This document shows, one piece after another, positions 20,757 through 38,262 of a stretch of DNA of 38,262 nucleotides (within the stretch, counting starts at the first letter, position 1; each line of letters opens with the position of its first letter). The stretch covers positions 1-38,262 of the forward strand of contig SDOA01000026.1 in the NCBI GenBank assembly GCA_004524595.1, read 5' to 3'. A model generated the notes under the pieces. It was not told where the DNA came from. It made no database searches and worked only from the letters and a program-made list of their open reading frames with translations. The position numbers and the translations under genes were made by a program. Source of the stretch: Candidatus Thorarchaeota archaeon (GTDB taxonomy: Archaea; Asgardarchaeota; Thorarchaeia; Thorarchaeales; Thorarchaeaceae).

Positions 20757-21155
20757 GTGAGTCAAATGCCAATAGTCGAACTAGTAGCCAATAAAGTACT
20801 GGAAAACAATCCAGGCCTTGGTCTCGAAATTGTCGACATGATAGTTCTTCTTTGGATGTATTCCAATCCATATGACAGCCATAGACGACAACTAAGCTCT
20901 ATGCGTAATGTACTAAAAATGTCAGAGACCCTTCAAGTCCCTGGAGGAGGATTGGATATCACAGAAGAAGAACTCACGCAGATAGTATTAGGCAGCCTTG
21001 AGAAACTTAAGAGACTGGGGTTGGTCTATATCCAATCAGCAGGAGTCCATTATATCAAAGGAACCTTAACTGACTCAGGAATTGAGCTCGTTAACAGCAA
21101 TGTCAGAACTCCTGTATTGAAACGTGTTACAGCTGAGTTTGGTAATAATCCATGA
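20757..21155 (+). CDS. Hypothetical winged-helix-like protein, 132 aa
   Basis: No family recognised. The sequence is mostly helical (LGLEIVDMIVLLWMYS near residue 21), then ITEEELTQIVLGSLEKLKRLGLVYIQ, which reads like the last helix and wing of a winged-helix domain, and a final GTLTDSGIELVNSN, a common closing pattern of such domains. GTG at 20757 and ATG at 20766 are both possible starts, and neither has a strong ribosome site. It sits directly upstream of the ribosomal operon promoter and may be cotranscribed with the zinc-ribbon gene before it. Confidence 0.55.
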   Translation: MSQMPIVELVANKVLENNPGLGLEIVDMIVLLWMYSNPYDSHRRQLSSMRNVLKMSETLQVPGGGLDITEEELTQIVLGSLEKLKRLGLVYIQSAGVHYIKGTLTDSGIELVNSNVRTPVLKRVTAEFGNNP

Positions 21156-21182: not shown

Positions 21183-21189
21183 TTTAAAT
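21183..21189 (+). promoter_or_regulatory. TATA box of the ribosomal operon
   Basis: TTTAAAT in the gap between the hypothetical gene and L22. Initiation about 25 bases downstream would start the transcript near 21210, just before the first hairpin of the leader. Confidence 0.45.
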
Positions 21190-21209
21190 GGATAATATCT
21201 CCGAAACCG

Positions 21210-21396
21210 ACTAGTCGCAATTAAGACGCGACTGTTTCAGATTCAGAGGAGACAGTACAGGCATCTTAGTTCTGCTCGCGAGAACAGCCTGTAGACGTGT
21301 GCCAAATGGACTGGAGTGGTTGCAAAACGCGATGAAGACTTGGAGCTTACAACACGAAGTGAGCTTTGAGAAGTCCCACATCGGAAGTGAGGCAAA
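21210..21396 (+). promoter_or_regulatory. Structured 5' leader RNA of the L22 operon
   Basis: The 187 bases before L22 contain a series of perfect or near-perfect inverted repeats. GTCGC/GCGAC pairs at 21214-21232. ACTGT/ACAGT pairs at 21231-21256, an alternative that shares two bases with the first. ACAGGC/GCCTGT encloses GTTCT/AGAAC at 21257-21292. A long nested hairpin at 21330-21383 stacks CGATG/CATCG, GACTT/AAGTC and AGCTTA/TGAGCT (one wobble). It ends just before the GTGAGG ribosome site. No sensible protein is encoded. The structure suggests a ribosomal-protein or ligand-responsive leader; that role is inference. A separately processed small RNA is the alternative. Confidence 0.55.
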
Positions 21397-21861
21397 ATGC
21401 CAACGTATGGATACTCAATCATAGGCATTGACCCGGATAGGACAGCTATAGCTAGCGGAAGAAACATGCGGGTTTCCCCAAAACAATGCAGAGAAGTCTG
21501 CAAAGAAATTCGAGGAATGAATCTAGATAAGGCTATTGAACTACTAGAGGCCGTTGTTGAAGAGAAAGCATGGATTCCCTATAGGCGTCATTACAAAAAA
21601 CGAGGTCATCATTCAGGAATGAAAAAATGGGGTCCTGGAGGTCATCCAGTAAAAGCCTCGAATCATATCCTGAAGATACTGAAGAACGCCGAGGCAAATG
21701 CTGATAATAAGGGTCTAGACATAGATCGACTAAAGATCATGCATGCAGTGACTCATAGAGGTAGAATCTACAAGAAGTATATTGAGAGGGCTTTTGGTAG
21801 AAGTACACCCTATTTTGAACAGACTTCCCATGTGGAAATCGTAGTGGAAGAGGTGGACTAA
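21397..21861 (+). CDS. rpl22: 50S ribosomal protein L22 (uL22)
   Basis: Lines part of the peptide exit tunnel and contacts 23S rRNA. The 154 residues match archaeal L22, with AIASGRNMRVSPKQCREVCKEIRG at the start, the long beta-hairpin region containing RRHYKKRGHHSG and KWGPGGHPVKAS, and the C-terminal VTHRGRIYKKYIERAFGRST segment. It opens this ribosomal run. L3, L4, L23, L2 and S19, which usually precede L22 in archaeal operons, are not upstream here, so the operon is split at this point. ATG follows GTGAGG. The stop is directly followed by the S3 start. Confidence 0.96.
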   Translation: MPTYGYSIIGIDPDRTAIASGRNMRVSPKQCREVCKEIRGMNLDKAIELLEAVVEEKAWIPYRRHYKKRGHHSGMKKWGPGGHPVKASNHILKILKNAEANADNKGLDIDRLKIMHAVTHRGRIYKKYIERAFGRSTPYFEQTSHVEIVVEEVD

Positions 21862-37980: not shown

Positions 37981-38262
37981 GTGTGGCTCTGGAGCAGAAG
38001 CGCAACTGACGGTAGTCACTTGTGACAGCTGAGGAAACTCCCGACTCAAACCGACGGCAGTCTGACGAAAGGAAGGAGGTGAGAGCCTCGCTCTGGGAAC
38101 AGAAACGACACCCCCGAATTGGATACGACAATGATGCAGACTCGAATCTGTTGAGGACCAGTTCGGATAGGTTGAAACGGCCCATCACTGTTGAGCAATC
38201 TCAAGAATACATCGCTAAGGTGTCGGTCCAAGATGTAGGGTAGAGAGCACAGTTAGATGTTG
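37981..38262 (+). ncRNA. rnpB: RNase P RNA, 5' part (continues beyond the window)
   Basis: No protein fits this region, but conserved RNase P RNA blocks occur in order. GAGGAAACTC at 38031-38040 corresponds to CR-I, preceded by a GTCAC/GTGAC hairpin like P3. GGAACAGAAACGAC near 38096-38109 resembles the CR-II/III ACAGAAAC segment. GTTGAAACGGCCC at 38171-38183 and GAGCAATCTCAAGAATACAT at 38193-38212 match the region before and at CR-IV. The CR-V block and the 3' strands of P1 and P4 are not present, so the gene runs off the window. It cleaves the 5' leader of pre-tRNA; its protein partner Rnp1 is encoded at 22982. Confidence 0.75.

Follow-up and report, generated by a model that had tools for sequence, protein, structure and literature searches.

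The stretch that precedes the ribosomal protein cluster led by rpl22 is a conserved folded RNA, and we consider that it is best explained as a cis-acting ribosomal leader (r-leader) of the rpl22 operon, with a probability of roughly 70%. The window analyzed here is a whole stretch of 38,262 nucleotides from a Thorarchaeota genome; all positions refer to it, and all the features described are on its forward strand. An earlier note, made from the letters of the window alone, had proposed a densely structured leader at this place, a proposal that the comparison of relatives supports.

The rpl22 locus and the fold of its proposed leader

The leader occupies the interval between the 3' end of an open reading frame (20757–21155) and the ATG of rpl22 at 21397. 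The reading frame immediately 5' of it had no Pfam match. The rpl22 gene itself (21397–21861; Pfam Ribosomal_L22, E 5.7e-30) is the first of the operon. Among the reading frames of the run that were scanned, Pfam matches were obtained for L22, S3, L29, RNase P p29, S17, L14, L24, S4e, L5, S14, S8, L6, L19e, L18, an L15-type protein and SecY. The cluster does not amount to a complete S10 operon: L4 was located elsewhere in the five Thorarchaeota-like genomes checked (G001, G002, G003, G004 and G190), and S19 was found away from L22 in three of them (G002, G003 and G004) and was not found in the two others (G001 and G190). In the outgroup genomes G120 and G006, S19 adjoins L22. In this group, the operon thus begins at L22, which is the site of the leader. 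We also observed two copies of the S19 gene in G003 (L098 and L106), separated by about 55 kb, and, at 37990–38262 of the window, a match to the archaeal RNase P RNA (124.8 bits) that is truncated where the window stops.

The conserved core P0–P4 (21213–21333) was defined with three alignments, pair counts and the model R1, which represents 120 nt and matched the window at 21213–21334 with 104.8 bits. Its fold is a single long irregular hairpin. The outer helix P0 pairs GTCGC (21214–21218) with GCGAT (21329–21333), and the long helix P1 joins 21228–21244 to 21307–21323. Above them, the bulged site P2 (21248–21256 with 21293–21303, the latter with the consensus AxACGUGUGCC) is nearly invariant, the stem P3 is formed by ACAGGC (21257–21262) and GCCTGT (21287–21292), and the hairpin P4 (21269–21285, GTTCT/AGAAC) closes on the conserved loop GCTCGCG. 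Over 45 leaders, the most constant parts were P2 and P4 (columns 62–76), with a mean column identity of 0.94 for both P2 strands and of 0.96 for P4, compared to 0.80 for P1 and 0.68 for P0. A 3' hairpin of variable sequence, P5 (21337–21375, GACTT/AAGTC and AGCTTA/TGAGCT), lies between the core and the ribosome site; this interval folded with a mean z of −2.1, and 35 of the 40 leaders had a z under −1.

The earlier reading was based on inverted repeats, and every repeat listed was recovered with exact letters: CGATG/CATCG (21330 and 21379), GACTT/AAGTC (21337 and 21371), AGCTTA/TGAGCT with one G-U (21344 and 21360), ACAGGC/GCCTGT (21257 and 21287), GTTCT/AGAAC (21269 and 21281), GTCGC/GCGAC (21214 and 21228) and ACTGT/ACAGT (21231 and 21252). 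The hairpins that it drew from them hold for P3, P4 and P5, but the main helices P0 and P1 had been overlooked. In the nested 3' hairpin, GACTT/AAGTC and AGCTTA/TGAGCT stand, whereas CGATG/CATCG, which would have to form in place of P0, is weak and has little in its favour. Folded alone, the leader of the window reached −59.2 kcal/mol with a z of only −1.82, and 10 of 200 shuffles were equally stable, which is mildly better than chance and could by itself be taken for repeats arisen by accident. The leader fold is convincing because of the comparison among relatives, while the single sequence does not settle the question; covariation, the distribution of R1, the cognate test and the L22 tree, all described below, refute chance repeats, an explanation to which we attach practically no weight.

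Covariation among homologous leaders

Pairing was measured on A2, a MAFFT alignment of 27 leaders (25 distinct) from which R1 was built, and on A3, which contains 45 leaders aligned by R1 and, being fitted to its own structure, is biased towards it. Identical leaders were counted once, which left 41 of 45 for the A3 pair counts and for the tree-aware null. On A2, 20 of the 40 pairs showed two-sided changes and 89.5% of the cells were paired, compared to 85.0% after shuffling and 37–45% when the structure was slid. On A3, two-sided changes were observed for 26 of the 40 pairs, 91.0% of the cells were paired, and 125 cells carried two-sided changes compared to 33.3 in shuffles. On A2 as on A3, none of the 500 shuffles reached any of the five measures. 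The proportion of paired cells on A3 was 78.7% for P0, 92.5% for P1, 100% for P2, 99.7% for P3 and 92.5% for P4. P2 is too constant to be tested by covariation (100% paired, invariant), and P4 shows little covariation because little varies in it. By inspection, most of P1 was swapped in L078 and L080 by matching changes on both strands.

We then considered the phylogeny of the leaders. With a tree-aware null of our own, which keeps the per-column change counts, no pair had an E-value below 0.05 when all 8911 column pairs were considered; structure pairs made up 9 of the 20 best rows, and they pass 0.05 only if the E-value is rescaled manually to the 40 pairs under test. On an independent tree of L22 proteins with 39 tips, we examined 4352 variable column pairs; 78 of them combined a pairing of 75% or more with two or more compensatory events, and 18 of these belonged to the structure and 2 to the competing hairpin P1' described below. 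Compensations and breaks amounted to 28.3 and 31.3 for P0, 31.7 and 31.7 for P1, 10.3 and 1.0 for P3, and 1.0 and 1.0 for P4. The breaks of P0 and P1, about 31 each, thus equal their compensations on this tree, which we count against the leader reading. Covariation in homologous leaders, the check that the earlier note had asked for, was therefore positive, for the tree-aware null only after scaling.

An alignment-free test on 40 leaders, in which cognate strands were compared with non-cognate ones at identity cuts of 0.85 and 0.75, gave z values of −5.1 and −5.4 for P0, −4.8 and −5.8 for P1, and −5.7 and −5.9 for P3. The controls stayed near zero or a little below (A:C, 0.1 and 0.7; C:preSD, −0.1 and −1.0), and negative leanings were unexpectedly observed for A:SD (−2.4 and −2.5) and A:preSD (−1.8 and −2.3). 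L077, the start codon of which reads ATT, was omitted from this test, from the fold calculations and from the start-codon counts. Both strands of P1 and P3 and the 3' strand of P0 are marked by covariation, the cognate test and the L22 tree, and the 5' strand of P0 by the pairing and cognate tests.

Conservation of the region might also be due to a short upstream reading frame encoding a leader peptide, as an ATG is present at column 37 in 24 of the 45 leaders and the frames begin alike (MEAVQ, for example). This candidate was rejected: the ATG is missing in 21 of the 45, the frames are broken by single-base indels and stops and so end after 7 to 37 residues, and the changes track base pairing. 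We regard a leader peptide as scarcely credible.

Predicted promoter, ribosome-site-like sequence and a possible switch

The TATA-like box TTTAAATG is located at 21183–21190, in agreement with a block consensus, and a TATA-like hexamer starts 27–31 bases 5' of the core in all 44 leaders measured. With the usual archaeal spacing between the TATA box and the start of transcription, the box at 21183 predicts a start at or just before the first P0 base, near 21212, close to where the earlier note had placed the beginning of the leader. The leader core is probably the start of the messenger of the ribosomal protein cluster. In the 44 leaders that were parsed, 59–76 bases separate the end of the core from the start codon, and only 1 of 44 has a second TATA-like hexamer anywhere from the first base of the core to that codon. 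A TATA-like box of its own at a fixed distance and a compact, constant core would also suit an independent non-coding RNA gene that acts in trans and stands before rpl22 by chance. However, all 45 leaders examined directly precede rpl22 (44 parsed by script, and L077 judged by eye), at the short distance given above for the 44, and in 43 of 44 rpl22 has no separate TATA-like hexamer, so that a trans-acting gene appears very unlikely.

After the variable P5 hairpin comes the ribosome-site-like sequence GGAAGTGAGG (21383–21392), which is conserved in most leaders, with exceptions that include L038, L049, L062 and L064. By eye, the P4 loop seemed able to pair with the ribosome site, but this idea was rejected, as the cognate test gave no signal (z of 0.7 and 0.3).

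The 5' strand of P0, GTCGC, can pair either with the far GCGAT (P0) or with the neighbouring GCGAC (21228–21232), the outer end of P1, to form the hairpin P1'. On A2, P1' had a covariation score of 0.384 compared to 0.261 after shuffling, and 4 of its 6 pairs showed two-sided changes; its cognate z values were −3.9 and −4.9, in a test whose unexpected negative leanings for A:SD and A:preSD weaken this result. Its signal was weak on the L22 tree, and its pairs were absent from the 60 best rows of the tree-aware null. A3, which is fitted to P0 and P1, disfavours P1' (5.3 compensations compared to 26.3 breaks). The folding calculations favoured the P1' state over the P0 state by 3.4 kcal/mol in the window, but across 40 leaders the median difference was 3.4 kcal/mol in the opposite direction, and no P1' pair could be forced in L050 and L052. 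The mean folding probability of P0 was only 0.33, which we also count against the leader reading. Masking of the ribosome site by an exchange between P1' and P0 was rejected, with a computed openness of 0.52 when P0 was forced and 0.50 when P1' was forced. Since openness hardly differs and P0 has a probability of only 0.33, the switch is a hypothesis and not a result: the competing GTCGC/GCGAC hairpin suggests it without proof. Of the two overlapping 5' repeats through which switching had been proposed, GTCGC/GCGAC therefore keeps this possibility, with access to the ribosome site equal in both folds, and ACTGT/ACAGT shows no covariation. Taken as CTGTTTC/GAAGCAG, the latter was pairable in 90.2% of the cells compared to 90.1% in shuffles, had no two-sided change and gave no signal in the cognate test (z of 0.1 and 0.2); it was rejected.

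Distribution, relation to known leaders and proposed function

The L22 of the window retrieved 33 loci, of which the 26 closest (79–89% identity) belong to MAGs of Thorarchaeota-like archaea, titled Thorarchaeota in 24 cases, Lokiarchaeota in one (L024) and only "archaeon" in one (L004). Among the 33 fetched, a clearly alignable leader before rpl22 was present in all 26 Thorarchaeota-like loci. In a survey of 227 Asgard genomes, R1 matched 44, once in each and directly before rpl22 (E up to 0.1), under stricter filters with which weak matches could be lost. The 44 genomes share members with the 26 named loci, and the two counts are not independent. When matches with E up to 10 were admitted, an extra chance-level one of 14.1 bits appeared in G003. 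Within the numbered block of matching genomes, G192, G196 and G216 had no detectable rpl22. Outside the group, R1 with default filters found no match in 23 sources, including L084 and the non-Asgard loci L027–L033, and with the filters off on 13 outgroup loci only chance-level matches were obtained (best 10.5 bits, E 0.99). In another Asgard genome, a chance-level match (9.8 bits, E 1.7) lies just 5' of rpl22 (L091, 1394–1460).

At the gathering cut-offs of Rfam 15, no family was reached by the window or by the leaders L034, L037, L038 and L078, and below them the window gave only weak matches of 13 and 9.6 bits, in keeping with the undescribed leader that the earlier note had envisaged. The lack of a family also bears on a riboswitch that would sense some small molecule or ion tied to ribosome supply. 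A constant bulged site within covarying stems would fit such an RNA. However, the Rfam search was negative and the element was found before rpl22 and at no other gene, while riboswitches as a rule also control genes of transport or synthesis; we find a riboswitch highly improbable.

According to Eckert and Weinberg (2020, PMC7247131), archaea have few known cis-regulatory RNAs. The archaeal r-leaders that they list, namely L4 in Archaeoglobi, eL15 in Euryarchaeota, and S15 in Halobacteria and in Methanomicrobia, include none from Asgard archaea, a name absent from their main text. Like the leader of the window, they are covarying folds before ribosomal protein genes confined to one lineage; unlike it, they belong to other lineages and other first genes, in a comparison made by lineage, gene and kind of element. 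Among open-licence PMC papers, we found none describing an r-leader in Asgard archaea or Thorarchaeota. As no Rfam 15 family matched and no such leader was found in these papers, the element would be a new ribosomal leader of the known r-leader kind.

In E. coli, the S10 operon is regulated by L4 and the spc operon by S8, one site governing a long ribosomal protein operon. The gene neighbourhood overlaps with the one described here, which is likewise a long ribosomal protein operon; the difference, in a comparison made by gene order only, is that this operon starts at L22. The constancy of P2 and P4, beyond the need of a plain stem, suggests a bound partner. Known r-leaders are bound by a ribosomal protein of the same operon (PMC7247131), and by analogy we infer the same here. 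In the mechanism that we propose, transcription from the TATA-like box at 21183 would yield a 5' UTR of about 185 nt that opens the messenger of the rpl22 operon. An excess ribosomal protein of the operon would bind the bulged P2 site and the P4 loop and keep the P0–P1 hairpin closed, which may lower translation initiation at the ribosome site that follows P5 directly. The candidate binders are L22, the nearest, and S8, because of its regulatory role in the spc operon.

Mimicry of an rRNA site is common in r-leaders and not required, according to PMC7247131. For the present leader no likeness to rRNA rose above chance, which we count against the leader reading: the longest sequence matches had a score of 10, the two-strand motif fell within shuffles, and R1 with the filters off reached at best 8.3 bits (E 2.1) on rRNA. 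These searches covered sequence and paired motifs, and a mimicry in three dimensions may still exist. Another chance-level R1 match (7.8 bits, E 3.1) falls in a stretch of 23S rRNA which we take to resemble the L11-binding GTPase centre. Facing G-A pairs, the core of the kink-turn recognized by L7Ae, were absent by eye from the constant P2 strands of the alignment. This lack of rRNA likeness, together with an access to the ribosome site computed the same between folds, is also what would be expected if the conserved 5' UTR determined the stability of the mRNA or its rate of translation without responding to a ribosomal protein, and fold, place and promoter fit such a UTR equally well. We nevertheless hold it to be unlikely, since a plain stem would not require P2 and the P4 loop to be nearly as constant as they are.

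A different, strongly conserved leader precedes rpl22 in 8 of the 227 genomes (G060–G067; loci L118–L125). It resembles the r-leader proposed here as a strongly conserved stretch at the same gene and differs from it in its letters and its predicted fold. With the filters off, R1 found nothing above chance in L118, L120, L122 and L123 of this clade, nor with default filters in L084, and Rfam gave no match for L118 and L122. Separately, G090 and G091 (L126–L127) have in common a 231-base stretch before rpl22, with 72% identity. The second clade is a hint at more than one origin of such control. A more extended reading, which we consider doubtful, is that the first Asgard r-leader would be a conserved three-strand switch, with P1' forming first on the nascent RNA and P0/P1 once the protein holds P2 and P4, while other Asgard clades would have evolved unrelated leaders at the same gene.

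R-leaders are RNAs that let other cells balance their ribosomal proteins. The leader described here, found in every examined Thorarchaeota-like genome with a detectable rpl22, offers a concrete target for studying the control of ribosome supply in these relatives of eukaryotes, and a putative new RNA-protein pair to identify.
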